Origin: Chryseobacterium sp. MFBS3-17
Lineage (GTDB): Bacteria > Bacteroidota > Bacteroidia > Flavobacteriales > Weeksellaceae
DNA: 64,000 nt
Assembly: GCF_020687745.1 (NCBI RefSeq)
Contig: NZ_JAJEWK010000006.1
Coordinates: 1-64,000, forward strand
Reading direction: 5' to 3'
The notes below the pieces were generated by a model. The model saw only the letters and a list, made by a program, of their open reading frames with translations. It did no database searches and was not told where the DNA came from. Below, piece after piece: positions 1,931-20,285 of this stretch. Position numbers and translations under genes: made by a program. Every line of letters starts with the position of its first letter. The stretch's first letter is position 1.

Positions 1931-2140
1931 TCAATAGACTAATGTGATTTTTTCAGTTTCGAGAGGTTTATTACCATCGTTGGTATTGTAATATTTGAAA
2001 TCATTTTTATCTTCAAATCTAAAAACCCGCTTCTCAACTTTTCCAAAATTTGAAACCTTAATTTTTTGAATGCCTTGATATTCTGCAAGTTTTCCGTTAA
2101 TGCTCACTTTCTGTCCGATTTTTAAATCTGCTATTCTCAT
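1931..2140 (-). CDS. Small hypothetical protein of the integrated element
   Basis: A 69-residue protein starting MRIADLKIGQKVSINGKLAEYQG, which suggests a small beta-rich fold: the DLKIGQKV/INGKLAEYQGI pattern resembles an SH3- or KOW-like barrel. No catalytic motif is visible. It lies between the replication gene ending at 2193 and the Rep gene starting at 1882, on the same strand, with short gaps, so it is probably part of the replication module. I do not recognise a named family. Confidence 0.55.
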   Translation of the reverse strand: MRIADLKIGQKVSINGKLAEYQGIQKIKVSNFGKVEKRVFRFEDKNDFKYYNTNDGNKPLETEKITLVY

Positions 2141-2192
2141 TTTTGTTTAATTATTTGTATTCATTGTAATTAAAAAATGTTCTTAATCTTCA

Positions 2193-2885
2193 TTAAGCGA
2201 TCACTTGAGGTCGTTTAATACTTGGAATGGATTGGGTCAAGGTTTTGTTTTCATCATGATTTATTAGATAGGGTAGGATGCTTTTTAATATTGATTTCCA
2301 ATTGGAAATTGGTTTTCCTGATTTGTTTCTCCAATGATCTTTTAACCAACTCTCATATTTGGTTTTCAGTTGATTATCTAAACTTTTATTGTAAGAATCT
2401 AATGTTTTCGCATATTCTATGAAGTCGTTTAAAGAAGGTATATCATTATTTTTGACTGTAGATTTAGTTTTTCCTGAATTAAAAACTTTATTTTTTGATT
2501 TTGATTCATTTTCCCTAATTCTAATTGTTTTTTCTAGATCGTTCGATTTGCATTTAGAATTACGTTCAATAATTGTTTTTTCTTGTTTTTCAACTTCAAT
2601 TACTTTTAAAGGATAATGTAGAATCAACCGATAATAACATGGATAGCCACTTTTGGTTTCAAATTGAATTAATCCATAATTTCGAAGTTTTTCTTTGGTG
2701 GTTTTTACCGTTTTTCTAGTGACTCCTAAATTTTTACTTGTTACAATATCTGAAATTTTGAAATCGTAACGATTATTTTCATAACCTGTTTTCAAAAGAA
2801 ACAAATACATTGCAATAGCTGTAGAACCCAAATCATTATTTTGATTGAATTTCCAAAAGCGATCGATCAATTCAAGGTAATACAT
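2193..2885 (-). CDS. Winged-helix replication protein (phage/plasmid type)
   Basis: 230 residues. The N-terminal 90 residues form a helix-turn-helix: LGSTAIAMYLFLLKTG, then KISDIVTSKNLGVTRKTVKTTKEKLRNYGLI, then an IQFETKSG wing. A charged, Ser/Lys/Asn-rich linker of about 50 residues follows. The C-terminus (YESWLKDHWRNKSGKPISNWKSIL) is the tail shared by DnaD-like or phage O-like replication proteins of Bacteroidota elements. The domain order fits an origin-binding or helicase-loading protein. It is the last of three minus-strand genes; the upstream DUF3853 gene ends 3 bases before its start. Confidence 0.6.
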   Translation of the reverse strand: MYYLELIDRFWKFNQNNDLGSTAIAMYLFLLKTGYENNRYDFKISDIVTSKNLGVTRKTVKTTKEKLRNYGLIQFETKSGYPCYYRLILHYPLKVIEVEKQEKTIIERNSKCKSNDLEKTIRIRENESKSKNKVFNSGKTKSTVKNNDIPSLNDFIEYAKTLDSYNKSLDNQLKTKYESWLKDHWRNKSGKPISNWKSILKSILPYLINHDENKTLTQSIPSIKRPQVIA

Positions 2886-2888
2886 AGA

Positions 2889-3140
2889 TTACTTTTTACC
2901 GAAAAGCGTTAAAGCTCTCTTTATGTCAATAATGATAATATTACCATTTTGGATAATCGCTTTATCCAAAATACCGGATGATTTTATTTCAGACGCTTTA
3001 GATATCGAACAGCCCAAAATCTTAGCAAGTCCTTTTAATCCGTACTCGTACTTCTTATCTGAATTAACACTTTTTGAAACTTCTAAAAATTCTTCGACAG
3101 TTAATTTCCATAGCGGAGTTTTTGGGTCTATTGTTTTCAT
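2889..3140 (-). CDS. DUF3853 family protein, copy 2
   Basis: 83 residues with the family pattern: PLWKLTVEEFLE near the N-terminus, then YGLKGLAKILGCSISKASEIKSSG (a helix-turn-helix-like segment), then AIIQNGNIIIIDIKRALTLF. DUF3853 proteins are found on Bacteroidota conjugative and mobilizable elements next to replication genes; their role is not established, although the fold suggests a small excisionase-like DNA binder. It overlaps the upstream paralogue by 4 bases, so translation is probably coupled. It is clearly homologous to its neighbour, which points to tandem duplication. Confidence 0.7.
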   Translation of the reverse strand: MKTIDPKTPLWKLTVEEFLEVSKSVNSDKKYEYGLKGLAKILGCSISKASEIKSSGILDKAIIQNGNIIIIDIKRALTLFGKK

Positions 3141-3424
3141 TCACTGTCTTTTTTGAAAAGCTCTAGTGCTTTTTCGGCATCAACAATAATTTTTCGTCCA
3201 TTTTGAATAATAGCTTCATCAAAAATCCCTTTACTTTTAAGTTTTCCAGCGTGATTTTTTGAACATCCTAATAGTTTTGCTAATCCTAAGAGTCCGTAAA
3301 CATACTTGTCTCCAATCAAATTTTGAATGATTGGTTTTTCCTCAATATTTGGCTTTCTGGAATCTAAAATTTCTACAAATTCTCCGATGGTCAATTGCCA
3401 TATGGGTTTATTATAATCTTCCAT
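3137..3424 (-). CDS. DUF3853 family protein, copy 1
   Basis: 95 residues, with PIWQLTIGEFVEIL, YVYGLLGLAKLLGCSKNHAGKLKSKG and AIIQNGRKIIVDAEKALELF, the same three blocks as the downstream gene plus an insertion of about a dozen residues after the first. The helix-turn-helix-like central block suggests DNA binding, perhaps as an excisionase or copy-number regulator. It is the first gene of the minus-strand replication operon and faces the divergent XRE gene across a 134-bp intergenic region, where the two promoters appear to overlap. Confidence 0.7.
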   Translation of the reverse strand: MEDYNKPIWQLTIGEFVEILDSRKPNIEEKPIIQNLIGDKYVYGLLGLAKLLGCSKNHAGKLKSKGIFDEAIIQNGRKIIVDAEKALELFKKDSE

Positions 3425-3481
3425 TTTTCAATTTTTTTATTGAAATTTATTATTAAATGTGCTTATTTACATTTATTTTGC

Positions 3482-3502
3482 TACATTTGTATTGCAAATA
3501 TA
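3482..3502. promoter_or_regulatory. Face-to-face -7 promoter boxes between divergent genes
   Basis: TACATTTG on the plus strand (3482-3489) and its inverted partner CAAATATA (3495-3502, reading TATATTTG on the minus strand) both match the Bacteroidota -7 consensus TANNTTTG and are only 5 bp apart. The dyad ATTTG-N5-CAAAT lies inside them. One box would serve the XRE gene (3559, plus) and the other the DUF3853 operon (3424, minus). No good -33 box is seen for either, which suggests activator dependence or weak promoters. Confidence 0.45.
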
Positions 3503-3558
3503 GAATAAATATTGATAAAAATCTATGTTTTTAAATTGAAAAATTAATTTTTTTAGAT

Positions 3559-4005
3559 ATGACAATTACTGAAAGATTACAAATGTACATGACTCACAAA
3601 GGCTTAAACCCTAATAAAGTTACCGTTGAAGCTGGTTTGTCAGTCGGGTTGATTGGAAGAGCTCTCAAAAATAATTCTGGACTCAATTCAGATACTATTG
3701 AAAAAATTCTATATGCTTACGCCGATTTAAATCCGGAATGGTTTACTACTGAATCTGGCGAAATGCTAAAAACCAACAACCAAACAATTAATAACGGCGA
3801 TGGTAACAATGTCAATAGTAATATTAACGGTAATGTTGGTGGAAATGTAACCATATCCCATAGTGAGTTTTCTGGAATGATCGAGCTTCAAAAAGGTTAT
3901 CAAGAAATTCAGAAGGAATTGAATGAAAGACTTAGCATTAGCCAGGAGCAACTTACCGAAAGTATGAAACAGGTAACGATACTTGTAGAGCTTCTGAAGA
4001 AGTAA
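3559..4005 (+). CDS. XRE-family transcriptional regulator with Asn-rich linker
   Basis: 148 residues. Residues 1-65 are a lambda-repressor-like helix-turn-helix (TITERLQMYMTHKGLNPNKV, then TVEAGLSVGLIGRALKN, then DTIEKILYAYADLNPEWFTT) as in flavobacterial prophage and element repressors. Residues 74-100 are an Asn/Gly-rich low-complexity linker, and the C-terminal 45 residues form an amphipathic helix likely to be a coiled coil for dimerization. No peptidase domain is present, so it is not a self-cleaving CI repressor. It is divergent from the replication operon and upstream of the integrase, so it probably represses replication or excision. Confidence 0.75.
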   Translation: MTITERLQMYMTHKGLNPNKVTVEAGLSVGLIGRALKNNSGLNSDTIEKILYAYADLNPEWFTTESGEMLKTNNQTINNGDGNNVNSNINGNVGGNVTISHSEFSGMIELQKGYQEIQKELNERLSISQEQLTESMKQVTILVELLKK

Positions 4006-4098
4006 TACCAACGAACATAAAAAAATATTTTATCTCAGATACGCTGCTATCTGAAGGTAATTTCTATTGCTCTAATCAAAAACTTTAATTCTTATAAA

Positions 4099-5367
4099 TT
4101 GAATATTAAATACCATAGTCAGTTTCTTCTCGACAAAGAGAAAGGTAAGCATACCGCAAAAATTCGTTACCGAATCAAATGGGAAGGAAATGTAGTGGCG
4201 TTTAGTTTAGGATATAGAGTAGAAATTGAAAAGTGGAGTAGGGAGACCCAAAGATGTAAAGCCAATACTACCCACGGCACAAAGAAAGTTTCAGCAAGTT
4301 TAATCAACAGAAAGATCCAAAAATATGAAACCGCTTGTGAGAAAGTTTTTCAGAAATGTGAATTAGAAGGATTTATTCTTAGAGAAGATAATTTCAGAGA
4401 ACTTTTCAATGCGGAAATAGGTAATGCTCCTAAGAAAGAAATTAAAATTGAAAAATTGTTTTTTGATGTTTACGATGAATTTACAAAAGAAGAATCTGTA
4501 AGAAATCAATGGACAAAATCCACAGAAGGAAAGATGCAAACAATCAAAAAACATTTGACAAATTTCAATGCTGATGTAACTTTTGATTATTTTTCTGAAG
4601 AAGGACTTTTGAATTATCAATTATTCCTGCAAAACACTTTAAAATTCAAGAATTCTACAATTTTAAAGAATTTTTCTTTTCTGAAATGGTTTCTGAAATG
4701 GGCAACAAAGAAGAAATATAATAAAAATGACGCTTTTGTTACATTTAAACCAAGACTAAAAACTACTCAAAAAAAAATTATTTTTCTTACTCCTCTAGAG
4801 TTGAAAAAACTAAAAGAATTTAAAATTCCAAAACAGAAGAAATATCTAAATAGGGTAAGAGATGTATTTCTATTCCAATGTTTTACTGGTTTAAGATATT
4901 CTGATGTTGCAAACTTAAAAAAGAGTGATGTAAAAGATGGTTTTATAGAAATAACTACCGTTAAAACCTCTGATAGTTTAATTATCGAACTTAATAATCA
5001 TAGCAAAGCATTATTGAGGAAGTACGAAAAAGTTGAAGCATTAAATAATCAAGTGTTTCCTGTAATAACGAACCAGAAAATGAATGAATACTTAAAAGAA
5101 TTAGCGGAATTAGCAGAAATCGATGAACCCGTTCGTCAAACTTATTACAGAGGAAATCAAAGGATAGATGAAGTGACACCAAAGTACGCATTGCTTGGAA
5201 CTCATGCTGGAAGACGAACATTTATTTGTAATGCCCTTTCTTTAGGCATCGCTCCACAAGTAGTTATGAAATGGACTGGTCATAGTGATTACAAAGCCAT
5301 GAAACCTTACATTGACATTGCTGATGAAACAAAGATTAGTGCGATGGAGAAGTTTAATTTGTTATAA
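4099..5367 (+). CDS. Tyrosine recombinase (integrase)
   Basis: 422 residues with the Bacteroidota integrase layout: an N-terminal arm-binding domain (about 1-95), a SAM-like core-binding domain (about 105-215) and a C-terminal catalytic domain. Catalytic residues are visible: Arg266 in CFTGLRYSD, His369 and Arg372 in THAGRRTF, His395 in TGHSDY and the nucleophile Tyr404 in KPYIDI. It therefore looks active. The frame opens with TTG at 4099; no ATG lies just upstream, so the exact start is uncertain. As the last gene of the plasmid-like module it should drive integration and excision of the element. Confidence 0.9.
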   Translation: MNIKYHSQFLLDKEKGKHTAKIRYRIKWEGNVVAFSLGYRVEIEKWSRETQRCKANTTHGTKKVSASLINRKIQKYETACEKVFQKCELEGFILREDNFRELFNAEIGNAPKKEIKIEKLFFDVYDEFTKEESVRNQWTKSTEGKMQTIKKHLTNFNADVTFDYFSEEGLLNYQLFLQNTLKFKNSTILKNFSFLKWFLKWATKKKYNKNDAFVTFKPRLKTTQKKIIFLTPLELKKLKEFKIPKQKKYLNRVRDVFLFQCFTGLRYSDVANLKKSDVKDGFIEITTVKTSDSLIIELNNHSKALLRKYEKVEALNNQVFPVITNQKMNEYLKELAELAEIDEPVRQTYYRGNQRIDEVTPKYALLGTHAGRRTFICNALSLGIAPQVVMKWTGHSDYKAMKPYIDIADETKISAMEKFNLL

Positions 5368-5392
5368 AATATCGAAAGAAATCTTGCTAATT

Positions 5393-5737
5393 CTATACAA
5401 TCTCAGCTTCCAACTCAGGGTCATAATTAGGAAATTCAAAATCGACTAAAGGGTTATCATCGAGCCATCGGTATTGAATCCGCTTATTTAACATGATTGG
5501 CATTCTTTGTTTGGTGTTGTGGATTTCAGCCATTAATTCGTTGGCTTGAGTTGTAACAACAGTAACAGTATTAATTTCGTTTCCTGTTTCGGGGTCAGTC
5601 CAAACATTGTACAAACCGCCAATTGTTGAAATTGGTTGGTCTTTAACTTTTATTAAATATTGCTCTTTAGTCTTTCCTTTTTCGTCTAAATGTTTCCATT
5701 CGTGGAAGCCATTGGCAAAGATGAGATAATGATTAGA
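5393..5737 (-). pseudogene. SRAP (HMCES/YedK-like) peptidase, C-terminal remnant
   Basis: The minus strand encodes a clear C-terminal half of an SRAP protein, which crosslinks to abasic sites in single-stranded DNA: LIFANGFHEWK, TIGGLYNVW, TVTVVTTQANELMAEIHNTKQRMP with the conserved His, and WLDDNPL near the end. The N-terminal half, including the essential Cys2 and its DNA-binding residues, is missing. Upstream of about 5737 the frame encodes unrelated residues up to a fortuitous ATG at 5947. The gene has therefore been cut by a deletion or insertion at the edge of the integrated element and is unlikely to work. Confidence 0.7.
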
Positions 5738-5870
5738 AATTGAACACATACTAAACTTAATATTTTTAATGAGTGCTACAATGCTGACATAGCAAAGTCG
5801 AAAATTTATTAGTCGAACACAACTCGGAAACACATTCGCCGTGGCGAATATTAGCCAGGTAATGCTTTTG

Positions 5871-5982
5871 AATGGTGACATCGCATAATAAACGATGTAA
5901 TAGCTGGGACACGACTCGAATGTCTGGTCTTCAGCATTTGAGCCCAATATTGCATTCCTAATGGTGACATAAATGGTGACAT
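5871..5982 (+). repeat. Three copies of an 11-bp direct repeat
   Basis: AATGGTGACAT occurs at 5871-5881, 5960-5970 and 5972-5982, between the broken SRAP gene and the 3' end of the AlbA-type gene. They could be integrase arm-type sites or debris of an old insertion. No function can be assigned from sequence alone. Confidence 0.5.
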
Positions 5983-5983
5983 T

Positions 5984-7267
5984 TTACAATACTTTCCATT
6001 CACCGCTTCGATTGTTGCCAAGTCTTGTAATAATTTTATTTTCCTGTAAAATTTTCAGTGTTCTTTTTATAGTTCTGTCCGTAACAGTTAGTTCTTCGGC
6101 CATTTTTAAAGCAGTTATTTTACTGTTACTTTGAATTAATTCTAAAACCCTCTGTTCAACACTCACTTCCACAAAATTAAAAATCACATAAAAGCCGTTA
6201 TGGTCATATTTGAAAACCGGAACAGGAATTTTTGCGGCCTTCGCTTCATTCAGAATCTTAATCGTTCCGCGTCCCCATGATTCAATCAGTCCGACACGAA
6301 AAAATGCATTGGCAATGTCCGGATTGTATGGACGGGACGGGTGCTTTACTTTCAGTTTGGCCACAGTCCAGTCTTCCGGTAACTCTCCCTCATTCCAAAT
6401 AATCAATTTGTTATCATAAACGCTAATTTGAACAGGAATTCCGCTTGCGTAATCCTTGTGGACAATTGCATTCAAAACCGCTTCTCGAAGTGCAGCAGGT
6501 GGAACAGGAAAACTTTCTTTTCGTTGCAGTCCGTCATAGGTAATCTGTGCTTTTAGATATTTAGTTAAAAGCAAATCAATTACCTTTTCTGCCTGTTCCA
6601 ATAATCCACCTTTCACTTCATCCTGAAAAGCCAAATCATCATCGGTTCTGAAGAACCCAATTTTTGTGATCGCACCTGTAAAAAGTTTGTCCGGTTTGGG
6701 GTGAAAGAGCAGCACAGCAGCTTTCTTGAGATTTCCGTCCGGAGCAACAAGATTAAGTTTTTCCAGAAGATCTTCGGTTGAATCATCCTGAATGTTCTCA
6801 TCGAACCGTTCAGTTTCAGAAGCCCGTTCTTTGAACAGGTCAAAAGCCGCATCTGAAAGATCGGCCACCTTGGTGTAAGGTTCTGGTGTTCCGTCCCATT
6901 TCAAACCTTGCTTTTTTAGGAGAAACTTGTCCAGTGCAGAGCCTTTTAATTCCTGATTGGTGGCACCACTTCTGTAAAAATAGCTGCCCTTATAATTTAC
7001 AGGATACGGATAGGCATCGGTAATAATTTCAAGATAATCTTTTCCGGCTTCGGTCTTAATGTTTACATCCACCAAAACACCCAGAATGTCTTTCACTTTA
7101 TTAGGCAAATCTTCCGACAATTTTTTGGCATCACAAATACCTTTCACATGGCCTTTGTCATCAATACCGATAAACATTATTCCACCATTGGCGTTAGCAA
7201 AACCGCAAATCCATTTAATGTATTCGTCGCGCCAGTTTTCTTTAAATTCGGTATTCTGATTTTCCAT
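5984..7267 (-). CDS. AlbA/Schlafen-domain ATP-binding transcriptional regulator
   Basis: 427 residues from the ATG at 7267, chosen because homology starts at MENQNTEFKENW; an earlier ATG at 7309 adds an unlikely leader. Residues 5-120 form an AlbA_2 domain (TEFKENW, ICGFANANGGIMFIGIDDKG). Residues 270-370 form a GHKL-type ATPase domain (LREAVLNAIVHKDY, IWNEGELPEDW, IESWGRGT), and a C-terminal winged helix follows (ALKMAEELTVTDRTIKRTLKILQENKII). Such proteins are often near mobile elements and defence genes. It is divergent from the SIR2 operon with an 83-bp gap, so it may regulate that operon, but this is inference. Confidence 0.8.
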   Translation of the reverse strand: MENQNTEFKENWRDEYIKWICGFANANGGIMFIGIDDKGHVKGICDAKKLSEDLPNKVKDILGVLVDVNIKTEAGKDYLEIITDAYPYPVNYKGSYFYRSGATNQELKGSALDKFLLKKQGLKWDGTPEPYTKVADLSDAAFDLFKERASETERFDENIQDDSTEDLLEKLNLVAPDGNLKKAAVLLFHPKPDKLFTGAITKIGFFRTDDDLAFQDEVKGGLLEQAEKVIDLLLTKYLKAQITYDGLQRKESFPVPPAALREAVLNAIVHKDYASGIPVQISVYDNKLIIWNEGELPEDWTVAKLKVKHPSRPYNPDIANAFFRVGLIESWGRGTIKILNEAKAAKIPVPVFKYDHNGFYVIFNFVEVSVEQRVLELIQSNSKITALKMAEELTVTDRTIKRTLKILQENKIITRLGNNRSGEWKVL

Positions 7268-7325
7268 ATTCTGCAGTTTCACAAAAATAAGGATTTTACT
7301 TTTCCACAATGTTGCACGGTCACAT

Positions 7326-7333
7326 TAATTTTG
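7326..7333 (+). promoter_or_regulatory. Candidate -7 box for the SIR2 operon
   Basis: TAATTTTG at 7326-7333 fits TANNTTTG, 17 bases before the preferred SIR2 start at 7351. No perfect TTTG is found at the -33 position (TTTC at 7301-7304 is the nearest), so this is a tentative promoter. Confidence 0.35.
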
Positions 7334-7350
7334 GTTATTTTTATACGATA

Positions 7351-8634
7351 ATGATTAATGATATGATGAAACACGATCCTTCGGAGTATATAAGAGGAAT
7401 TCAGCAAATTTTGATTTCTGATAAAAAGAAAATAGGCTTTCTTTTTGGAGCAGGAAGTTCTTTAGCTAGGAAGAGTGATAATTCACTTACAGTTCCAGCG
7501 ATCGGTGCGATGACAAAAGAAATAGTAAAAGAAGCCGGCGAAAAACAAGCCAGTTATGGAATTGCACTAGAGCAAATAGAGGTTGAACTTGGCTCTGATA
7601 ATTTTAACATAGAAACACTGTTGTCAAAACTTGAATTAAAATTAGAAGTTATAGGTGATTCAACTTTAAATTCTTTGACAAAAGAAGATTTTCAAAACCT
7701 AATTCAATTCATTAAAAAATGTGTTCGAGAAAAAGTTAGTGTGCACCTTGAAAACGATAAAATTGTACATAAGGACATAGTTAAAGATTTAGTTCAGACT
7801 GATTTTGCAAATTGGATAGGGCAAGCGGAACGTAAGTACCCTATTGAAATTTTCACAACTAATTATGATTTTCTCTTTGAATTGGGTCTAGAATATAAAG
7901 AAGTTCCGTACTATGATGGTTTCTGCGGAAGTTTAAGAGCGTTTTTTAATCCTGAATCCGTTGAAGACTTTTCTTTCTTGTCAAAACAAACCAAGCTTTG
8001 GAAAATACATGGTTCTCTAGGATGGCACTATGACACTGATACTGAAAAAATTTTAAGAGTTAGCCCAGATGATGAAGATATCCTAATTTACCCTTCGACA
8101 TTAAAATATAAGGATTCTAAAAAACAACCATATGAGAGTTTATTAGATCGTTTATCAAATTTTATTAAGCAAGATGATTCCATTCTCATAACTTGTGGTT
8201 ATTCTTGGGGTGATGAACACATAAACTCAAGAATAGTTTCTGCACTAAAGACAAACACCACATCACATGTTATAGCACTTTATTATGATAGGTATGACAA
8301 AATTGATGAACAATCAAAAGTTGTAAAAATAGGATTTGATAATCCTAAAATCTCCATTTACGCTTCAAATAGTGCAGTAATTGGCTGTAATTTTGGTAAC
8401 TGGAAAATAAAAAGTGAACCTTCAAAAGAGGATTCGGTTAATATTGATTTGTATTTTGATGAAGATGGAGCCTTGGATGAAGATGCAATAAAAGGAACTG
8501 AAACAAAAGGAGAAGAAGATTGGAAAGGAACTGGGGAGTTTGTTTTGCCGGATTTTGGGAAGCTTGTCAAATTTCTCAATTCTATGGTAAATGAAAATGA
8601 AATCAAGAAAATTGGAGAAAATGTTAAGAAGTAG
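7351..8634 (+). CDS. SIR2-family NADase effector (Nezha-like defence)
   Basis: 427 residues from the ATG at 7351; a start at 7309 is possible but would add a leader overlapping the divergent gene's region. Residues 25-300 are a SIR2 domain: G33AGSS in FLFGAGSSLARK (NAD binding), Asn171 and Asp173 in TTNYDF, and the catalytic His220 in KIHGSLGW, followed by YPST and CGYSWGDEHI. Bacterial SIR2 domains of this kind usually hydrolyse NAD+ to stop phage growth. The next gene is a HerA ATPase overlapping by 14 bases, the known SIR2-HerA pair (Nezha). The C-terminal 130 residues are acidic and without a recognised domain. Confidence 0.88.
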   Translation: MINDMMKHDPSEYIRGIQQILISDKKKIGFLFGAGSSLARKSDNSLTVPAIGAMTKEIVKEAGEKQASYGIALEQIEVELGSDNFNIETLLSKLELKLEVIGDSTLNSLTKEDFQNLIQFIKKCVREKVSVHLENDKIVHKDIVKDLVQTDFANWIGQAERKYPIEIFTTNYDFLFELGLEYKEVPYYDGFCGSLRAFFNPESVEDFSFLSKQTKLWKIHGSLGWHYDTDTEKILRVSPDDEDILIYPSTLKYKDSKKQPYESLLDRLSNFIKQDDSILITCGYSWGDEHINSRIVSALKTNTTSHVIALYYDRYDKIDEQSKVVKIGFDNPKISIYASNSAVIGCNFGNWKIKSEPSKEDSVNIDLYFDEDGALDEDAIKGTETKGEEDWKGTGEFVLPDFGKLVKFLNSMVNENEIKKIGENVKK

Positions 8635-10405
8635 AATAACTGAAATTGGAGAAATAGATAGTATTAGCGGGAATAATATTTCAGTTAAACTTTTTGATAG
8701 CCTTAAATCTAATATGCCAATAATAGATGGTATTGTTTATAGAGTTGGACAAATTGGATCTTTTATTAGAATACCACTTGGTTATGCAAATCTTTATGGA
8801 ATTGTAACCCAGATAGGTTCAGCAGCTATACCCGAAAGTTTGAGGGAAGCTGTTGCAAAAGACTATGAAAATTTAAAGAATACTAGATGGATTAATATAG
8901 TTTTAGCGGGAGAGCAAGTTGGTCAAAGATTTGAAAGAGGAGTAACGCAGTATCCAACTACAGGAGATAAAGTGCATCTAGTTACAATCAATGACCTTGA
9001 TATAATATATGGCGGATATGAGGAATCTAATTCTATTTCGGTCGGAAATATTAGTGTTTCTGAAAGTTTAGATGCTAAAATTGATCTGGACAAATTACTA
9101 TCAAGACATTGTGCCATAGTTGGTTCAACAGGAAGTGGCAAATCAAATTCAGTATCAGTTTTGCTTCAATCTATTGCAAATAGAGATTTTCTTAGTTCTA
9201 GAATATTGGTAATTGATCCGCATGGTGAATATAATGATGCTTTGTCTAAGCATTCACACGTAATTGAGGTACATTCAGCAGATGATGCTAATAAATTGCA
9301 AATTCCTTTTTGGGCATTACCATTCAATGAGTTGATAAAAATATTCTCCGGAAACTTATCTGACCAAAATCGCGATTATATCAGAGAAAAAGTAGTAGAA
9401 GCGAAAATAACGAGTGCATTAAACAATAAAATTGAAGTTGCGAAGGAATCCATTACAGCTGATTCTCCGATACCTTTTAGTATAAAACGTCTGTGGTTTG
9501 AATTAACTGATTTTGAGAAGCAAACGTTTACAGACACAACCAGAACTACATTAAGTGCATTAATTGTTACTGGGGATGCTGAAAAGTTAATTTCCAACGA
9601 ATATACCCCCGCTGGAATGGGTAATAGTGCACCTTTTTTAAATCAAAAAGCTAAAGGTCTGTTGAGTTTTTTGGAAAGCATGCGAAATAAATTAAATGAT
9701 AGCAGTTACAGCTTTTTATTTTCTCCTGGAAAGTTTGCACCAGATTCTGAAGGTAAAATTGAAAGTGATTTAGATGATATGTTTTTAAAATGGCTTGGTA
9801 ACAAATTACCAATAACAATTTTAGATTTATCAGGAATACCCAGTGAAATAATGTCTTCTATTTCGGGGACACTTTTAAAAATTATTTATGATGGGTTATT
9901 TTGGGGTGTAAATACAAGTGTTGGGGGTAAAAATCAACCTTTATTAATTGTATTAGAGGAAGCACATAGTTATTTAAAAGCGGGTGAGCATTCAATCTCA
10001 TCAAGGACGGTTCAAATGATAGCTAAAGAAGGTCGCAAATATGGAGTAGGATTACTGCTTGTAACTCAAAGACCATCAGAATTAGATGAAACAGTATTAA
10101 GTCAGTGTGGAACTCTAATAGCTCTAAGAATGAACAATTCGAAAGATAGAGGACATATTCGATCAGCGGTTCAAGATGAACTACAAAGTATGGTAGATCT
10201 ATTACCTAGTTTAAGAACTGGTGAAGCGTTAATTTCGGGTGAGGCTGTGAAGATACCGTCACGAGTTAAGTTCTTTAAAATTGCTAACGCACCTAAAAGT
10301 TCTGATCCTAAAGCCTCAGAGAGGTGGTTAATGAATGTTGAGGATTCAGAAAATGAATATAAAAAATTATTAAAATCTTGGAGAAATAAAAATTATAAAA
10401 TATGA
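8621..10405 (+). CDS. HerA-type ATPase/helicase (Nezha-like defence)
   Basis: 594 residues from the ATG at 8621, which overlaps the SIR2 gene by 14 bases; an alternative in-frame start at 8591 exists. An N-terminal HAS-barrel-like domain (about 1-120) precedes a RecA-type core with Walker A GSTGSGKS (Lys174), VIDPHGEY and Walker B LLIVLEEAHS (Glu446-Glu447), then the HerA hallmarks IAKEGRKYGVGLLLVTQRP and SQCGTLIALR. HerA proteins form hexamers that translocate DNA. In SIR2-HerA systems the hexamer binds SIR2 and gates its NADase activity. The KTSC gene starts inside its stop codon (ATGA). Confidence 0.9.
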   Translation: MLRSRITEIGEIDSISGNNISVKLFDSLKSNMPIIDGIVYRVGQIGSFIRIPLGYANLYGIVTQIGSAAIPESLREAVAKDYENLKNTRWINIVLAGEQVGQRFERGVTQYPTTGDKVHLVTINDLDIIYGGYEESNSISVGNISVSESLDAKIDLDKLLSRHCAIVGSTGSGKSNSVSVLLQSIANRDFLSSRILVIDPHGEYNDALSKHSHVIEVHSADDANKLQIPFWALPFNELIKIFSGNLSDQNRDYIREKVVEAKITSALNNKIEVAKESITADSPIPFSIKRLWFELTDFEKQTFTDTTRTTLSALIVTGDAEKLISNEYTPAGMGNSAPFLNQKAKGLLSFLESMRNKLNDSSYSFLFSPGKFAPDSEGKIESDLDDMFLKWLGNKLPITILDLSGIPSEIMSSISGTLLKIIYDGLFWGVNTSVGGKNQPLLIVLEEAHSYLKAGEHSISSRTVQMIAKEGRKYGVGLLLVTQRPSELDETVLSQCGTLIALRMNNSKDRGHIRSAVQDELQSMVDLLPSLRTGEALISGEAVKIPSRVKFFKIANAPKSSDPKASERWLMNVEDSENEYKKLLKSWRNKNYKI

Positions 10406-11657: not shown

Positions 11658-14600
11658 ATGTCAAAATCCCACCTTTCACCACGCCAGTCCCTCAATAAAT
11701 CATTTCTAAAACTAAAGCCGAACCGTAAGGAAATTGAAAACTTCAAAAGTAGGTTTATTACGCTTGTGGAGGGAATTAATGAAAAAGAATCTGAAGAATT
11801 TCAGAAGAATCTTATTTCCGATTTTCTGAAGAACATTGGCTTTGCACCCGATTATTATATCAACACCAAAGGCAGAAACGATTTGGTTATTCACAACGAC
11901 AAGGCGCATTCCTGTTCTGTTGGGGTGATTATTGAGACAAAACAGTCTGGGAATAATGCTGAAATGATCAATTCAAAAAAACTGAATTCAAAAGCACTTC
12001 AGGAACTGTTGCTGTATTATCTGAGAGAGCGGATTACGCACAAAAATTTGGAAGTAAAACATTTGGTTGCGACCAATGTTTACGAATGGTTCATTTTCGA
12101 TGCAAACATTTTTGAAAACTGCTTTGCAAAGGACAAGGTACTGATTAAGAAATTTGAGGATTTTGAAAGTAAAAGACTTTCAGGAAACAAAACCGATTTT
12201 TTCTATTCCGAAATTGCGAAACCTGCTATTGATGCCGTAATTGAAAGTTTGGAATACACCCATTTCAACCTGAAAGATTTTGAAAAATTTGTCCGAAACG
12301 ACAGCAAGAAAGACGATAACAACCTAATTGCACTTTTCAAAATATTATCGCCACAACATTTGCTGAAACTTCCGTTTATCAATGACAGTAACACGCTCGA
12401 CAAAAGTTTCTATAACGAATTACTGCATATTATCGGACTTGTTGAAACCAAGGATGGCGGAAAAAGATTAATCGAACGAAATAAACCTGCACAAAGAAAC
12501 TCGGGATCTTTGCTCGAAGATACCATAATTCAACTCGATACGTTAGACAAAGTAAATCGTGTGAAGAAATCGTTTCTGTATGGCGAAACTACGGACGAAA
12601 AACTCTTCAATATTGCGTTGGAACTCAATATCACCTGGATTAACCGTGTTCTCTTTCTGAAGTTATTGGAAGGCCAATTAATCAATTATCACGGAGGTGA
12701 TAAATCCTATTCCTTTCTGAATTTTGATAAACTGCGTCAGTATGATGATCTCAACACTTTGTTCTTTCAGGTTTTAGCCAAAAAGTTTGTGGATCGCAAT
12801 TCTGATGTCAGAAAAGCATTTGAAAAAGTTCCTTATCTGAACAGTTCCTTGTTCGAACCGACCGAATTGGAACATACCACTTTAATGATGAGCAATCTTC
12901 GGGATGATAAAAAAATTCCGTTGTTGGCAAATACCGTTTTGAAAGATGGACAAGGCAAAAAGAGAATAGGAGAATTGAATACTTTGCAATATTTATTCGA
13001 ATTTTTGGATGCTTATGATTTTGCAAGTGAAGGAACGGAAGAAATTCAGGAAGAAAATAAAACCATTATCAACGCTTCTGTTTTAGGACTAATTTTCGAA
13101 AAAATCAATGGATATAAGGATGGGAGTTTCTACACACCGGGTTCTATCACAATGTATATGAGCCGTGAAGTATTGCGGAAAGCGGTAATTGAAAAATTCA
13201 ACAGTTTAAAAGATTGGAACTGTCAGGATTTTACCCAACTCTATAACAAAATTGAGGATGTAAAAGAAGCCAATGAGATTGTAAATTCAGTCAAAATTTG
13301 TGATCCTGCAGTTGGTTCCGGCCACTTTTTAGTTTCTGTTCTGAACGAGATGATTTCCATTAAAAATGATCTTGGAATTTTGGTTGATAAAAAAGGGCAA
13401 AAATTTAGAGATTGTAATGTGGAAGTTGAAAGTGATGAAATTGTTATTACTGATACCAATACAAGCGAACTGTTCAGGTATAATCCTAAAAACAAAGAGA
13501 GCCAGCGCGTTCAGGAAACCCTTTTTCACGAGAAACAGACCATTATTGAAAACTGTCTTTTTGGTGTCGACTTAAACCCGAATTCCGTTAAAATATGTCG
13601 CCTACGTTTGTGGATTGAATTGTTGAAAAATGCCTACTATAAATCCGAAACCGAACTGGAAACTTTACCGAATATTGATATCAATATCAAAAACGGAAAC
13701 TCGCTTATTAGTCGTTTTCCTTTAGACAGCGATTTGAAATCAGCGTTCAAGAAATCGAAAGTTACGGTAGAAGATTACAAAAACGCAGTGCGCGATTATA
13801 AAGAAGCAGAGAGCAAGGAGAAGAAAAGAAGTCTTGAAGAATTTTTGGTTGCTCTGAAAAATGATTTCAGAACTGAAATCAGCAGAAACAGCAAAGAGAT
13901 GAAAAATCTCAATCTGTTGCGCGGAGAGTACTTTACAAAATATGGTAGCGAACAACTTTTCGGTGAGGAATTAACCAAAGCACAGCAAAAAGACAAGAAA
14001 GACCTTGAAAATAAAATTCAGAAAATTGAAGATGTTATTGAGGAAGTAAAAGGCAATAAGATTTATGAAAACGCTTTCGAATGGTGCTTCGAGTTTCCGG
14101 AAGTGCTGGATGATGAAGGCAACTTTATTGGCTTTGATGTGATTATTGGGAATCCGCCGTATATCCAGTTGCAGAAAATGGGTGCAGAAAGTGATGCTTT
14201 AGAAAAAGTGGGTTTTAAAACTTACGCCAAAACCGGAGATATTTACAGTTTGTTTTATGAGCAGGGACACAATATTCTGCGAGAAAATGGTCTGCTGATG
14301 TTTATTACTTCCAACAAATGGATGCGGGCAAACTATGGCGAAAGTCTTCGTCGTTTCTTTGTGGAGCAAACCAATCCGTTAACTCTAATTGATTTTTCCG
14401 GAAATCAGATTTTTGATACAGCAACCGTGGATACCAACATTCTGATGTTTGCAAAGCAAAAAAATGAGTTCAAAACACAGGCTTGCATTATCAAAGAAAA
14501 GCTGTTAAATAATTTGAGCGTTTTTGTTAGTCAGAACTCTGTTTTTTCAGATTTCAGAAATTCTGAGAGTTGGGTGATTCTGTCAACCATTGAAAGACAA

Positions 14601-15380
14601 ATCAAAGACAAAATTGAGAAAGTTGGTAAGCCGTTGAAGGATTGGGATATTTCAATTAATTATGGTATAAAAACAGGATTTAATGACGCATTTATTATCA
14701 GTGGTGAAAAGCGAAAAGAACTCATTGAGCAGGATCCTAAAAGTGAAGAAATTATACGACCGATTCTGAGGGGGCGTGATATCAAGCGTTATTCGTATGA
14801 TTTTGCTGATTTGTATATTATCACAACCTTTCCCAGTTTAAAGATTGATATTGAACAGTATCCTGCGGTTAAGGATCATTTATTAAGCTTTGGCTATGAC
14901 CGTCTGAAACAAACGGGTGATACTGGCGCAAGGAAAAAGACTAATAATCAATGGTTTGAAACACAGGATTCGATAAGTTATTGGGACGATTTTTATAAGC
15001 AGAAAATTGTTTGGGGAAATTTAAACTTAAATGCTTCTTTTGCTTTTGCACCTGAGGGTTTTTTCATTAATGCACCGAGTCCATTGATCGTTTCAAGTAG
15101 TCCTTTTTTATTGGCTTATCTTAATTCTAAAATAGCTGATTACTATATCAGAAGTCTTGGCGTAACACGTAATGGAGGTTACTTTGAATATAAACCGATG
15201 TTTGTTGAGCAATTACCGATACCAAAAGAAATTGAAAATCAAAATTTAAGCAAAGATTTTGCAGAGCTTATAGCAAATAAAAACAATGAATTTGAAAATA
15301 ATATTGATAATATTTTCTATAAAATTTTTGGGTTATCAGAAATGGAAATAAATTTTTTAGAAATAAATCTAGCTAACTAA
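11658..15380 (+). CDS. Type IIG restriction-methylation enzyme, phase-variable C-terminus
   Basis: 1240 residues combining nuclease, N6-adenine methyltransferase and target recognition. The N-terminal nuclease has Asp75 (GRNDLVI) and Glu93-Thr-Lys95 (VIIETKQ). Methyltransferase motif I is D549PAVGSGHF and catalytic motif IV is N832PPY. The C-terminal target-recognition domain (from about 953) has GKPLKDWDI, RPILRGRDIKRY and DFYKQKIV. The segment encoding residues 953-961 is one arm (14515-14539) of a 25-bp perfect inverted repeat whose partner opens an inverted homologous cassette at 16256. Inversion would swap residues 954-1240 for an alternative end in frame, changing the recognised DNA sequence. 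It is the last gene of the SIR2-HerA operon. Confidence 0.9.
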   Translation: MSKSHLSPRQSLNKSFLKLKPNRKEIENFKSRFITLVEGINEKESEEFQKNLISDFLKNIGFAPDYYINTKGRNDLVIHNDKAHSCSVGVIIETKQSGNNAEMINSKKLNSKALQELLLYYLRERITHKNLEVKHLVATNVYEWFIFDANIFENCFAKDKVLIKKFEDFESKRLSGNKTDFFYSEIAKPAIDAVIESLEYTHFNLKDFEKFVRNDSKKDDNNLIALFKILSPQHLLKLPFINDSNTLDKSFYNELLHIIGLVETKDGGKRLIERNKPAQRNSGSLLEDTIIQLDTLDKVNRVKKSFLYGETTDEKLFNIALELNITWINRVLFLKLLEGQLINYHGGDKSYSFLNFDKLRQYDDLNTLFFQVLAKKFVDRNSDVRKAFEKVPYLNSSLFEPTELEHTTLMMSNLRDDKKIPLLANTVLKDGQGKKRIGELNTLQYLFEFLDAYDFASEGTEEIQEENKTIINASVLGLIFEKINGYKDGSFYTPGSITMYMSREVLRKAVIEKFNSLKDWNCQDFTQLYNKIEDVKEANEIVNSVKICDPAVGSGHFLVSVLNEMISIKNDLGILVDKKGQKFRDCNVEVESDEIVITDTNTSELFRYNPKNKESQRVQETLFHEKQTIIENCLFGVDLNPNSVKICRLRLWIELLKNAYYKSETELETLPNIDINIKNGNSLISRFPLDSDLKSAFKKSKVTVEDYKNAVRDYKEAESKEKKRSLEEFLVALKNDFRTEISRNSKEMKNLNLLRGEYFTKYGSEQLFGEELTKAQQKDKKDLENKIQKIEDVIEEVKGNKIYENAFEWCFEFPEVLDDEGNFIGFDVIIGNPPYIQLQKMGAESDALEKVGFKTYAKTGDIYSLFYEQGHNILRENGLLMFITSNKWMRANYGESLRRFFVEQTNPLTLIDFSGNQIFDTATVDTNILMFAKQKNEFKTQACIIKEKLLNNLSVFVSQNSVFSDFRNSESWVILSTIERQIKDKIEKVGKPLKDWDISINYGIKTGFNDAFIISGEKRKELIEQDPKSEEIIRPILRGRDIKRYSYDFADLYIITTFPSLKIDIEQYPAVKDHLLSFGYDRLKQTGDTGARKKTNNQWFETQDSISYWDDFYKQKIVWGNLNLNASFAFAPEGFFINAPSPLIVSSSPFLLAYLNSKIADYYIRSLGVTRNGGYFEYKPMFVEQLPIPKEIENQNLSKDFAELIANKNNEFENNIDNIFYKIFGLSEMEINFLEINLAN
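14515..14539 (+). repeat. Left inverted repeat of the invertible specificity segment
   Basis: 25 bp starting TGAGCGTTTTTGTTAG and ending CAGAACTC, exactly complementary to 16231-16255. Identity stops on both sides, marking it as a recombination site rather than simple homology. It encodes residues SVFVSQN in both cassettes in the same frame. Confidence 0.9.
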
Positions 15381-16256
15381 ATTCAAAATGTTATCGACAG
15401 ATCTTTCAATTTCGTCAATTTCTTCCTTATTAAAACCATAAAGAGAATAGACAAAATTATCCACCTCTGAGATATTACAATTATCTTGCGAAAATGAAAT
15501 CTCCATAGTTTCATTTTTTTGCGGAAAAGGTAAATTTTGAAAATAATCGGTAAAAACCTTGAAGCCTGTTTGATCAAATGAGTAAATATAATATCTAAAA
15601 AGATAGCCGCAAAGAGTAGAATTTAATAATAGCCAAAGATATTCAAGATCCTTTCCTACAATAAAATAACAATCATTTCCAAAGAAAAAATTATTATCAT
15701 TGTCCAGTGTAAAACGAGGGAAATTTATTGAATTACTTTTTGCAATTCTCATAATTCCAGGATAAACAATTTTCTGCTTATAAAAATCGTCCATATATGC
15801 ACAGTTCCGAAGATTGTAAGGGGTATCGCCTTTGTCAGAACGTTTCTCTAACTGAGGATAGAAAGAATCCAAATGTTTTTTAACTGCAGGATAATCCTCG
15901 ATATTTACAGGCTTTATCCCTTTTTCCTTAATTCCATTGTGTGTATTAATTAACCATAAATCAGCGAAATCATATCCGTATCTTTTAATGTCCCTGCCAC
16001 GTAAAATCGGTCGTATTATTTCGGCGGATTTTGGATCTTCCGCAATCAATTGGTCTTTCTTTTTTCCGTCTATAATAAATGCTTCGTTATAGCCAGTAAG
16101 AATTCCCCTGTAAATATTAATATCCCAATCTTTCAAAGGTTTCCCAACCGCTTCTATTTTTCGCTTAATACTTTGCTCAATGGGACTTAAAATCACCCAA
16201 CTTTCGCTGTTTGAAAAATTACAATTTTCTGAGTTCTGACTAACAAAAACGCTCAT
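15369..16256 (-). CDS. Silent alternative target-recognition cassette of the type IIG enzyme
   Basis: 295 residues homologous along their length to residues 954-1240 of the adjacent type IIG enzyme. SVFVSQN, SESWVILS, GKPLKDWDI, IIRPILRGRDIKRY, DFADL and DFYKQKIV are shared, while the middle (about residues 105-215) and the tail differ, as expected for a different DNA specificity. It has no nuclease or methyltransferase domain. The opening ATG is formed by the A just outside the inverted repeat. In the present orientation it is probably silent, though translation as a free specificity fragment cannot be excluded. Confidence 0.85.
   Translation of the reverse strand: MSVFVSQNSENCNFSNSESWVILSPIEQSIKRKIEAVGKPLKDWDINIYRGILTGYNEAFIIDGKKKDQLIAEDPKSAEIIRPILRGRDIKRYGYDFADLWLINTHNGIKEKGIKPVNIEDYPAVKKHLDSFYPQLEKRSDKGDTPYNLRNCAYMDDFYKQKIVYPGIMRIAKSNSINFPRFTLDNDNNFFFGNDCYFIVGKDLEYLWLLLNSTLCGYLFRYYIYSFDQTGFKVFTDYFQNLPFPQKNETMEISFSQDNCNISEVDNFVYSLYGFNKEEIDEIERSVDNILNLVS
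16231..16255 (-). repeat. Right inverted repeat of the invertible specificity segment
   Basis: Exact reverse complement of 14515-14539 over 25 bp, at the first codons of the silent cassette. The base outside it (A on the minus strand) differs from the left copy, fixing the repeat edge. Confidence 0.9.
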
Positions 16257-16338
16257 TTTCCTTGTTATAAAAATAGCTTAGTTTTATTTTATATCGTTTT
16301 GGTTTAATTTAAACACTTAAATTTAAAAAAATTAAACT

Positions 16339-16935
16339 ATGATTTACGGTTACATTAGAGTCAGCACCGACAAACAGACAGTAGAAAACCAACGGTACGA
16401 AATCAACCAGTTTTGCGAACGAAGTATTGTGGTGGTAGATAAATGGTTGGAAGAAACCATTTCCGGTTCAAAAAAACTCGAAGAAAGAAAACTTGGCAAA
16501 CTCCTAAAAAAAATGAAAAAAGGCGATGTCCTAATCTGTTCTGAACTTTCCCGTCTTGGCAGAAATTTGTTAATGATTATGGGAATCCTCAACGAATGTA
16601 TGAACCGCGATATTCAAGTTTGGACCATTAAAGACAATTACCGCTTGGGAAGCGATATCAATTCAAAAGTTCTGGCTTTTGCTTTTGGTTTGTCGGCAGA
16701 AATAGAACGCAACCTGATTTCACAAAGAACAAAAGAAGCACTCGCCAGAAAGAAAGCAGAAGGCGTTATTCTAGGTCGCCCAAAAGGCAGAAAATCTGCC
16801 AAAACAAAACTCACCGGTCAGGAAAAGAGAATCAAAGAACTTCTGGATAAAAAAGTTTCTTATTCCGCAATCGGCAGAATTCTGAATGTCCATAGATTGA
16901 CGGTTTCGGCTTTTGTAAAGGAGAAAATGAATTAA
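16339..16935 (+). CDS. Serine recombinase (DNA invertase, Pin/Hin-like)
   Basis: 198 residues, the usual size of small serine invertases and resolvases. The N-terminal catalytic domain starts IYGYIRVSTDKQ with nucleophile Ser9, followed by SELSRLGRN (conserved arginines) and the long dimer helix AFGLSAEIERNLISQRTKEAL. After GRPKGRKS, the C-terminal helix-turn-helix (SYSAIGRILNVHRLTVSAFVKE) binds the crossover sites. Its position 84 bp outside a 25-bp inverted repeat enclosing two alternative specificity cassettes makes it the likely recombinase for that switch. No enhancer (Fis-like) site was identified. Confidence 0.9.
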   Translation: MIYGYIRVSTDKQTVENQRYEINQFCERSIVVVDKWLEETISGSKKLEERKLGKLLKKMKKGDVLICSELSRLGRNLLMIMGILNECMNRDIQVWTIKDNYRLGSDINSKVLAFAFGLSAEIERNLISQRTKEALARKKAEGVILGRPKGRKSAKTKLTGQEKRIKELLDKKVSYSAIGRILNVHRLTVSAFVKEKMN

Positions 16936-17317: not shown

Positions 17318-19372
17318 ATGAGTTTCAAATTAATAGCTATCCGGCCAGGTAACGAATGCAGTAATAGATTTTTGAAAAATCTGATACCAAACCAAATTTA
17401 TCAGTTTTATAATAATTATGAGTTCTTATTATCAGAAGAATACGAAGGTAATCGAGCTGTAAAATCTATAATCCTAAAAGACGAATTTAAAAATTTTTTT
17501 AATATTGATGGGAAATCAACAGAAGTAAACATTTCAGCAATAGTAGGTAAAAATGGTAGCGGAAAGAGTTCATTGCTTGAATTACTATATGCTTCATGTT
17601 ATGTTATTGCTTCCCGCAAAGAAATTTTATATGGCGTCGGTAAAATATTGCGTAAGTTTAGGTTGAACGATCAAAGAATGTCAGATAATGATGTTAGATA
17701 TTTAAATGAGATCCAAGGTGTTTTTCGAGATTTGGATGTGCAGATTTTTTATTCGTTGGATGATAAAATTTTTATGCTCGAAATTAATCAAGATTACATA
17801 ACCCATAAAATTTTGGATGGTAAAGACGAGAATTTTGATGAAGACGGAATTTTTAAAAATGAAAATCAGACATCAGAGTTTGAAAGATATGTGTTTAATA
17901 AATTGTTTTTCTATACAATTTCGATAAATTATTCCCTATATGGCTTAAATGAAAATTTCATGGGAAGTTGGGTAAAAGATCTATTTCATAAGAATGACGG
18001 TTATCAGACACCTCTCGTTGTCAATCCATTTCGCGAAGAAGGAAATATTGATGTAAATAATGAACTACATTTAGCACAAACAAGGCTTATGTCCAATCTT
18101 TTGGATAATCCTTTTATTGTTAACAGGAAGAAAGTTTCCGAAATTATCTTTGAATTAGACATTGATGGTCAAAATTTGGAAAATACTGACCAATTTGAAA
18201 GTGACTTTACAAATTTTAAAGAAGCGTTTGGATTTTCGAGTGAAAACTTTGTTACAAACGTCTACAATGGAATCTTCAGGGGAAGAAATCTTAGGCCAGT
18301 GTTAATTACTAGACAAAATAATGTGTATTTTGAAATTATTTCGAAGTATATTTTTCGAAAGCTTTTAAAAATTTCGAGAAATTACAAGGAATATAACGGC
18401 TTCGTATCTAGTTCAAGTAGAATTCAATTTTTTAAGTTTATACTTTTTTTGAATAGCGACCGAAGTCATATAACTTTAAAATTAAGACAAGTATTAAATA
18501 TTTTACGGTTTAATATTTTGCACGAAGATGATGGACATAGTTGGATTGCGGAAGAAGATTATTATAAAAAAACATTTAATAAATATTATCGTATTTCTTT
18601 AGAAATCCTTTTAGAGAAATTAATAAGTTTATCTGAGAATCATCCAGAGTTTGATATTGAAGAATTACTGCCAATTGGTTTTTTTGTACCGCATATTTTA
18701 GTTCAAAATACAGATCATCCAGAATCCTTATCTAATATTGATGAACTTAGTTCAGGCGAGCAGCACTACATTCACACATTACATGCTATTTTTTATCATA
18801 TAAAAAACCTTAATTCTGTTTTTTATTCGTCCGCTGATAAAATAAAATACCAATACATCAATATTGTTCTTGATGAAATAGAACTCTTCTTTCACCCTGA
18901 ATTTCAGAGAAAATTCATTTCAGATTTACTCGACGGTTTTGCAAAAATTAACATTGGTAATATACGAGGGGTTAATATTTTACTTGCAACACATTCAAGT
19001 TTCATACTTTCAGACATTCCTCATACTAACATTCTAAAAATGGATGAAGGAGCACAACAATTCTATAATGAAGATGACAAAACCTTTGGGGCAAATATCC
19101 ATGAACTATTAGACAATGATTTTTTCTTAAAGGATGGATTTATGGGAGAATTTGCTAAGAAAAAAATAAAAAATTTATCAGAGTTTTTAACGAGAAAAGA
19201 GATTCGGACAGATAAATGGAATAAAGAAAACTCTTTGAAATTTATTGAATTAATAGGTGAACCTCTTTTGAGAATGACAATGAAAGAATTATATTTCAAA
19301 AAATACAAGAATCAAATTGATTTAGAAATTGAAAAATTAATGAAAATAAAAGAGAATAATGGTTTCGATTAA
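17318..19372 (+). CDS. PtuA-like AAA/ABC-type ATPase (Septu-like defence)
   Basis: 684 residues of the RecF/SMC-like ATPase class. Walker A is G77KNGSGKSS, the ABC signature is L477SSGEQ, Walker B is VLDEIELFFHPE with Asp519-Glu520, and the switch His is H559 in LLATHSSFIL. A long alpha-helical insertion (about 180-460) lies between Walker A and the signature. There is no Toprim nuclease domain, unlike OLD proteins. The next gene, overlapping by 14 bases, encodes an HNH nuclease; an ATPase of this type followed by an HNH protein is the PtuA-PtuB (Septu) arrangement. No reverse transcriptase is nearby, so it is not a retron-borne copy. Confidence 0.8.
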   Translation: MSFKLIAIRPGNECSNRFLKNLIPNQIYQFYNNYEFLLSEEYEGNRAVKSIILKDEFKNFFNIDGKSTEVNISAIVGKNGSGKSSLLELLYASCYVIASRKEILYGVGKILRKFRLNDQRMSDNDVRYLNEIQGVFRDLDVQIFYSLDDKIFMLEINQDYITHKILDGKDENFDEDGIFKNENQTSEFERYVFNKLFFYTISINYSLYGLNENFMGSWVKDLFHKNDGYQTPLVVNPFREEGNIDVNNELHLAQTRLMSNLLDNPFIVNRKKVSEIIFELDIDGQNLENTDQFESDFTNFKEAFGFSSENFVTNVYNGIFRGRNLRPVLITRQNNVYFEIISKYIFRKLLKISRNYKEYNGFVSSSSRIQFFKFILFLNSDRSHITLKLRQVLNILRFNILHEDDGHSWIAEEDYYKKTFNKYYRISLEILLEKLISLSENHPEFDIEELLPIGFFVPHILVQNTDHPESLSNIDELSSGEQHYIHTLHAIFYHIKNLNSVFYSSADKIKYQYINIVLDEIELFFHPEFQRKFISDLLDGFAKINIGNIRGVNILLATHSSFILSDIPHTNILKMDEGAQQFYNEDDKTFGANIHELLDNDFFLKDGFMGEFAKKKIKNLSEFLTRKEIRTDKWNKENSLKFIELIGEPLLRMTMKELYFKKYKNQIDLEIEKLMKIKENNGFD

Positions 19373-20285
19373 TACACATAAGGTAGCAGCTATTTTCCTA
19401 AAATATCAACAGGAAATAGATCAATACCATAAAAATGCTTATAAAAAGTTACTACAATTCAAGAAAACGAATCGTTTAAAAAATTCTGCAAATAAATTTT
19501 TAGTAAAGATTATTTTTCAGTTTTCAAATAGAAATTTTTTTACAGTTGATAATAGAGAATATGACAATTTAGTAAAAGAGATTGGTGCTGTCCCAAAATT
19601 AAAAAAAAAATTTTACGGTAAACAAAAGCAAACATATTTAAAAGATGAAATTCTAAACATTTTGAATTACAAAGCAAGAAGAGGGGATTTTTTCCCCAAG
19701 TGTTTTCAAATTCTTGAAATTAAGTCTTGCGTTTATTGTAATTCACAATTAACTATTTCTGTTGAAAAAGAAGATAGTGGTATTTCAGCAAAATTTCAAT
19801 TAGACCATTATTATCCAAAAGATCAATATCCTTACTTGTCTGTTGCACTGCTAAATCTGTACCCTGTTTGTGCGGCATGCAATCTTAGCAAATCAAACAA
19901 CATTGTTAATTTTATTTTATATGATGATAATTTTTCTAATAATTTCAAATTTGAAATTGATAAGAAAACCTTGTCAGATTTCATTCTTGACAGAAAAACT
20001 GACGTGATTGTTAATTTTAAAGGTGATGAACTGTTTGAAAAACAGTTTAATATCAATGCAATATATAAAACACAGTCAGATATTACCGAAGAGTTAATCA
20101 CCAAAAGTTTAATTTACAGTGCATCATATAGAAGGAAATTAATCGAAAATTTTAGTATTAACAAAATAAATGATTCATTGATAAATAGATTTATTTTGGG
20201 CAATTATTCTGAGCCAAATGAAGTTCATAAAAGACCTATGGCTAAGTTTATGCAGGATATTGGTAGAGATATTGGGCTTGTTTAA
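19359..20285 (+). CDS. PtuB-like HNH endonuclease (Septu-like defence)
   Basis: 308 residues. The HNH core is clear: zinc-binding C124-x2-C127 (CVYC), the catalytic motif LDHYYPKDQYP with Asp149-His150, then C171-x2-C174 followed by Asn175 (VCAACNLSKSNN). The N-terminal 100 residues are basic and helical, and the C-terminus contains a conserved-looking YRRKLIENF segment. In Septu, PtuB is the DNA-cutting effector controlled by the PtuA ATPase. The start at 19359 lies inside the ATPase gene, indicating coupled translation. Somewhat longer than many PtuB proteins, so a related HNH effector is possible. Confidence 0.8.
   Translation: MVSINTHKVAAIFLKYQQEIDQYHKNAYKKLLQFKKTNRLKNSANKFLVKIIFQFSNRNFFTVDNREYDNLVKEIGAVPKLKKKFYGKQKQTYLKDEILNILNYKARRGDFFPKCFQILEIKSCVYCNSQLTISVEKEDSGISAKFQLDHYYPKDQYPYLSVALLNLYPVCAACNLSKSNNIVNFILYDDNFSNNFKFEIDKKTLSDFILDRKTDVIVNFKGDELFEKQFNINAIYKTQSDITEELITKSLIYSASYRRKLIENFSINKINDSLINRFILGNYSEPNEVHKRPMAKFMQDIGRDIGLV

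Follow-up and report, generated by a model that had tools for sequence, protein, structure and literature searches.

A candidate three-site shuffler of a type IIG-like restriction-modification gene beside an Mpi-family serine invertase in Chryseobacterium

While inverting specificity genes are known from type I restriction systems, an example being hsdS of SpnIII in Streptococcus pneumoniae (PMC4190663, PMC4948785; surveyed in PMC7394358), our search of an open-access library found no description of an invertible specificity domain in a type IIG or other one-polypeptide enzyme. The locus considered here, from a 64-kb stretch of Chryseobacterium DNA that we refer to as the window, raises the question of whether such a domain exists, as a type IIG-like gene is followed by an inverted second copy of its recognition end and by a serine invertase gene. 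Here, we argue for a nested three-site shuffler of the specificity domain, driven by the adjacent Mpi-family invertase, a reading to which we give a probability of about 0.6. That the locus is a working inversion system of either kind, three-site or two-state, is highly probable, since the chances of these two readings add together.

The enzyme is a single polypeptide (Table 1) in which DUF7149 and DUF7814 are followed by an Eco57I/N6 methylase core, containing the motifs DPAVGSGHF and NPPY, and by TaqI_C at the 3' end. Methylase and recognition domain (TRD) lie in one chain, as in type IIG enzymes (Eco57I, N6_Mtase and TaqI_C in the 1240-aa frame), and the PADLOC model REase_MTase_IIG matches the protein over its whole length (E 1.1e-280). 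No nuclease Pfam match was found in the 1240-aa protein; a D...ETK motif read in its N-terminal DUF7149/DUF7814 part points to a putative PD-(D/E)xK nuclease, and the enzyme presumably cuts DNA. An AlphaFold model covering residues 480-1240 is good in its methylase core, and its nearest folds include CamA, BrxX and MmeI; much of the recognition end has a pLDDT below 50, for which reason the recombination sites cannot be placed on a reliable fold.

Table 1. Features of the locus, in positions of the window.
Feature	Position	Strand	Basis or remark
Type IIG-like restriction-modification polypeptide, 1240 aa	11658..15380	+	Pfam, PADLOC
Live recognition cassette, blocks 1, 2 and 3 bounded by three sites	14515..15380	+	
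IR1 arm in live gene, candidate outer recombination site	14515..14539	+	codons of LSVFVSQNS
Middle site arm, live gene, 12 bp exact, ATACGACCGATT	14754..14765	+	codons of IRPI, within RPILRGRD
Inner site arm, live gene, 29 bp exact	14984..15012	+	codons of WDDFYKQKIVW
Silent inverted recognition cassette, 295-aa open frame, TaqI_C only	15369..16256	-	
Inner site arm, silent cassette	15764..15792	-	
Middle site arm, silent cassette	16005..16016	-	
IR1 arm, start of silent cassette	16231..16255	-	
Spacer between IR1 and invertase gene	16256..16338	.	83 bp
Serine invertase, 198 aa, Mpi family	16339..16935	+	NF009949

The enzyme resembles PglX of BREX systems in being a related adenine methylase with a TRD in the same chain, and there is mention of inverted copies of pglX, together with recombinases, in BREX loci. 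Membership of PglX was nevertheless rejected, the protein scoring 88 bits against a PglX cut-off of 500, and no BREX genes stand beside the locus, its neighbours being SIR2, HerA and PDC-M62A/B. Upstream of the restriction enzyme, at 7309-10405, a SIR2-domain gene overlaps a HerA helicase gene, which is the make-up of the SIR2-HerA anti-phage system; downstream, at 17318-20285, an AAA ATPase gene and a partner match the PADLOC candidate system PDC-M62A/B, and the two pairs form a defence island.

The live gene and the silent cassette are convergent and overlap by 12 bp, the two cassettes sharing 41% amino-acid identity and a Pfam TaqI_C match in each, and the frames of the enzyme, the silent cassette and the invertase are all intact. 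The outermost inverted repeat, IR1 (TGAGCGTTTTTGTTAGTCAGAACTC in the live gene), is perfect over 25 bp, its second arm being the exact reverse complement of the first, and both copies encode SVFVSQN in the same frame; inverting the segment between them in silico gives an open 1247-aa enzyme that ends in the other cassette. An earlier note on this DNA had already described the repeat, with these coordinates and this identity, its shared frame, the pair of convergent homologous cassettes and the in-frame fusion, and in all of this it was right. It had described a module with one repeat, whereas there are three nested site pairs, the 29-bp inner repeat having been overlooked; the intact, linked invertase gene that it placed 84 bp outside lies 83 bp away. 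IR1 and the nested 29-bp repeat are the only two exact inverted repeats of at least 20 bp in the window, the middle repeat being exact over 12 bp only, and IR1 was absent from the rest of the 2.64-Mb genome in a search that allowed up to two mismatches. Homologous live and silent cassettes, inverted relative to each other and with inverted repeats in frame, are the arrangement of an inversion system, and when all eight combinations of the three inversions were simulated, the enzyme and silent frames stayed open throughout, with eight distinct recognition ends and enzyme lengths of 1238-1249 aa.

We propose that the invertase encoded beside the silent cassette recombines pairs of short inverted sites within coding sequence. 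Inversion at the outer sites (SVFVSQN codons) would swap the whole recognition end; at the middle sites (RPILRGRD codons) it would swap blocks 2 and 3, and at the inner sites (WDDFYKQK codons) the last block alone. Such nested inversions would give eight in-frame recognition ends, the silent cassette serving as a store of unused blocks, and the cells of a clone would differ in the sequence that they methylate and restrict. The window's locus is known from a single assembly, in one orientation; flipping within this strain, and a change of specificity and methylation on inversion, are predictions from the sequence. The earlier claim of a segment that switches type IIG specificity stands in so far as there is an invertible cassette, a linked invertase and exchange between live and silent copies in related loci, while the label 'complete phase-variation module' may prove apt.

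The invertase scores 342 bits against the NF009949 cut-off of 272 (NCBIfam), and, of proteins with a solved structure, those closest to it in sequence are DNA invertases (4m6f, 3uj3) and gamma-delta resolvase. Across 16 aligned loci IR1 occupies a common position, and in essentially all of them its arms match within the locus over about 17 bp, with a sequence that varies from locus to locus (GAGCGTTTTTGTTAG, GAGCGATTATTTTAG, GAGCATTTATTTTG) and with no match between arms in the flanks outside. Read by eye, the spacers of relatives contain motifs such as CTGTCTAAAATAAAC that repeat, in reverse complement, the half of IR1 on the cassette side (TTATTTTAGACAG). As to the crossover dinucleotide, the covarying arms and an aberrant junction described below (L069) give conflicting answers. 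The invertase would probably act at all three site pairs.

The module is real and widespread. Among 35 relatives of the enzyme, drawn like all our searches from one genome per species, five have the inverted cassette, in each case with a closely related invertase in the same place and orientation; the remaining homologues have neither cassette nor invertase within the available sequence, which for some ends at a contig edge. Two of the five loci sit in Chloroflexi and Bacteroidetes metagenome bins, downstream of helicase genes, and share only about 30% identity with the window's enzyme in the enzyme body. A search with the invertase found it in 37 of 320 genomes of the family, and about 24 loci with sufficient sequence have both a live cassette and an inverted one, though loci that are related do not count as independent samples; in an order-wide search of 396 genomes at 1e-60, only one genome outside the family matched. 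The layout of cassette and invertase is also present on Lactococcus plasmids, 3' of a helicase gene. The silent cassette of six loci has the middle site as its starting point, adjoining the invertase, and that of class-2 loci is without block 1.

Several loci depart from this plan. On two Lactococcus plasmids (L109 and L110), close relatives of the plasmid module have neither invertase nor silent cassette adjacent and are apparently fixed. Another methylase gene, in L099 (bases 3292-8422), has an inverted repeat at NPPY, perfect over 63 bp, which a relative of the invertase adjoins; the silent part is 394 aa and comprises half of the catalytic domain and the recognition end. An insert of about 1 kb splits the inverted cassette between block 1 and block 2 in L075 and L077. 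In a degraded relative, L069 (genome G275, bases 2071-5700), an enzyme body with 96.6% identity to that of the window is fused in reverse, at residue 162, to the spacer of the invertase, where TTTGAG meets GATTTT in a site-like sequence, and at the inner site it runs out into unrelated DNA; the whole has the look of an aberrant inversion that used a chance site inside the body. In L081 (G220) the usual invertase spacer leads into a collagen-like repeat coding sequence (GGAGCGACTGGCGCAACAGG), with no recognition cassette, which is possibly another aberrant or retargeted inversion.

Codon choice bears on whether the internal sites are conserved as DNA. Of 47 cassettes, 42 have CGA for the middle-site Arg, although CGA makes up 12.7% of Arg codons in these loci, and each of the next two Args of the motif is CGA in 1/46. 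At the inner site Glu is GAG in 25/25 and Asp is GAC in 18/18, each against a background of about 24%. Counting each distinct DNA motif once leaves 35/40 for CGA, 17/17 for GAG and 15/15 for GAC, and the codon statistics are strong enough to survive the relatedness of the loci. Such near-fixed codons, set against background, indicate constraint on the DNA and not on the protein alone. The C/G variant that sets apart inner-site GAC and GAG agrees between arms in 19/19 loci, which is weaker evidence as several of these are near-identical (L078-L080, L087/L088); both kinds occur in genome G215, each at one locus (L094, L091).

The most direct view of past rearrangement comes from locus pairs with nearly identical bodies, whose live and silent cassettes we compared in 60-bp steps, the percentages depending on the pairwise alignments. 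The three blocks keep or change position independently. Between the window and L068, block 1 is in place (87/98%), block 2 is swapped both ways (98/92% against 61/60%) and block 3 is unrelated. L080 differs from L083 by a swap of block 2 alone (97/91%), from L086 by a swap of block 1 (90/91%) with block 2 kept and block 3 swapped in one direction (92%), and from L004 by a swap of blocks 2 and 3. In the Lactococcus plasmids pUCCL629A and pJM1F, the silent blocks 1 and 2 of one are the live blocks 1 and 2 of the other (99.2% over 496 bp one way, 85% in return), with colinear flanks. Both arrangements therefore occur in nature, in close loci and in the two plasmids; as the swaps are between species or plasmids, they show past exchange and not its rate. 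A segmentation blind to the sites put most breakpoints at 233-251 (middle site 242) and 463-494 (inner site 463-469), with a minority at 191, 395-417, 517-540, 579 and 656. The swaps are mostly reciprocal, the exceptions being L080/L086 in block 3 and L106/L107 (85% one way), and incomplete reciprocity is expected if divergence or conversion followed the exchange. Reciprocal exchange between fixed flanks is what inversion predicts, whereas conversion would homogenise the copies and import would not be reciprocal.

How far these swaps are the work of the invertase at all three sites is where the alternatives divide. It is possible, though we hold it to be a good deal less probable, that the invertase acts at IR1 only, giving a two-state switch, and that blocks are swapped at the internal motifs by occasional homologous recombination. 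IR1 adjoins the invertase and has the clearest matching of arms within loci, and the peptides encoded at the internal sites are conserved, as are the stretches in which recombination tracts tend to stop. Against the three-site reading stand the breakpoints that lie outside the sites, the position of others in conserved peptide motifs, where ordinary homologous recombination could act, and the short exact stretch of the window's middle repeat. Homology alone, however, would not demand near-fixed codons at the internal sites, which are found in Lactococcus too, and in the six loci whose silent cassette starts from the middle site beside it, the invertase apparently uses that site. The reciprocal swap of block 2 alone between L080 and L083 likewise points to internal inversions. 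Horizontal transfer followed by homologous recombination between the cassettes of different strains, with the invertase a passenger and no programmed inversion, would explain the frequent lack of any relationship between the block 3 sequences of close loci, something that requires an outside source, and body identity across species shows that the locus does move horizontally. We consider this explanation unlikely, as reciprocal swaps with unchanged flanks are predicted by inversion and not by import, and as nearly all loci that have an inverted cassette also have the invertase, in the same place and orientation, while in the available sequence none was seen next to type IIG homologues that have no such cassette.

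Two further explanations concern the silent cassette itself. It might be the relic of a dead duplication, rearrangement having ceased in this strain, and some relatives are indeed degraded, L069 being without its first 161 residues and L083 having broken frames; the window's frames and three site pairs are all intact, however, and its nearest relative, L068, differs by a clean exchange of block 2, which makes a relic improbable. Least probable of all, and to our minds barely credible, is that the cassette is translated on its own, as a recognition subunit that acts in trans. The window's copy has an ATG after AAGGAAA and an intact frame, yet in other loci the start codon gives way to AAGGAGCG, TTCAGCG, AACGAGCG or CCAGCG, and class-2 cassettes have no block 1 whatever. 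Because the start codon varies among loci, separate translation was rejected as a general feature.

The three-site shuffler that we favour shares with SpnIII-type hsdS loci the inverted live and silent recognition sequences, the several inverted repeats inside the recognition gene, the linked recombinase and the several specificities per locus. While hsdS inversion shuffles a separate S subunit with two TRDs, the shuffled part here would be the 3' end of one polypeptide for restriction and methylation, a single TaqI_C-type domain split in blocks, and the linked recombinase belongs to the Mpi family of serine invertases. Domain movement in S genes of Helicobacter pylori, including a type IIG S subunit (PMC3077401), likewise changes the position of recognition-domain sequences by recombination at repeats, but there TRD1 and TRD2 of a separate S gene exchange through flanking repeats, and no linked invertase or silent inverted cassette is described. 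Phase-variable type IIG enzymes are known from Campylobacter jejuni (Anjum 2016, cited in PMC5903667). As with those enzymes, variation here is predicted to alter methylation. The Campylobacter enzyme, however, reportedly switches on and off at a simple repeat, with no inversion of the recognition domain. Mpi itself is the master invertase of Bacteroides fragilis (Coyne 2003, cited in PMC5903667). The window's invertase falls in the same family by the NCBIfam cut-off. Mpi acts globally on promoters of surface loci, whereas the repeat here is confined to one locus in the genome and lies inside coding sequence.

Taking these lines together, we lean, with slightly less assurance than for the shuffler itself, towards a wider picture in which one invertase and three separately paired sites that double as peptide motifs make an eight-state gene, and in which the module has spread as a unit to helicase-linked methylases, as in the metagenome bins and Lactococcus plasmids. 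As one recognition domain would set both cutting and protection, a domain swap would change both together, and such a joint change avoids the mismatch that blocks the free evolution of ordinary type II systems. The loci would also amount to a natural library of interchangeable sub-domain blocks, their joints marked by conserved sites that show where domains re-join, which would be useful for reading and engineering DNA specificity. With this finding, Weeksellaceae and lactococcal plasmids gain a family of predicted epigenetic switches, in which, if the reading is true, one gene could yield up to eight enzymes with different targets.
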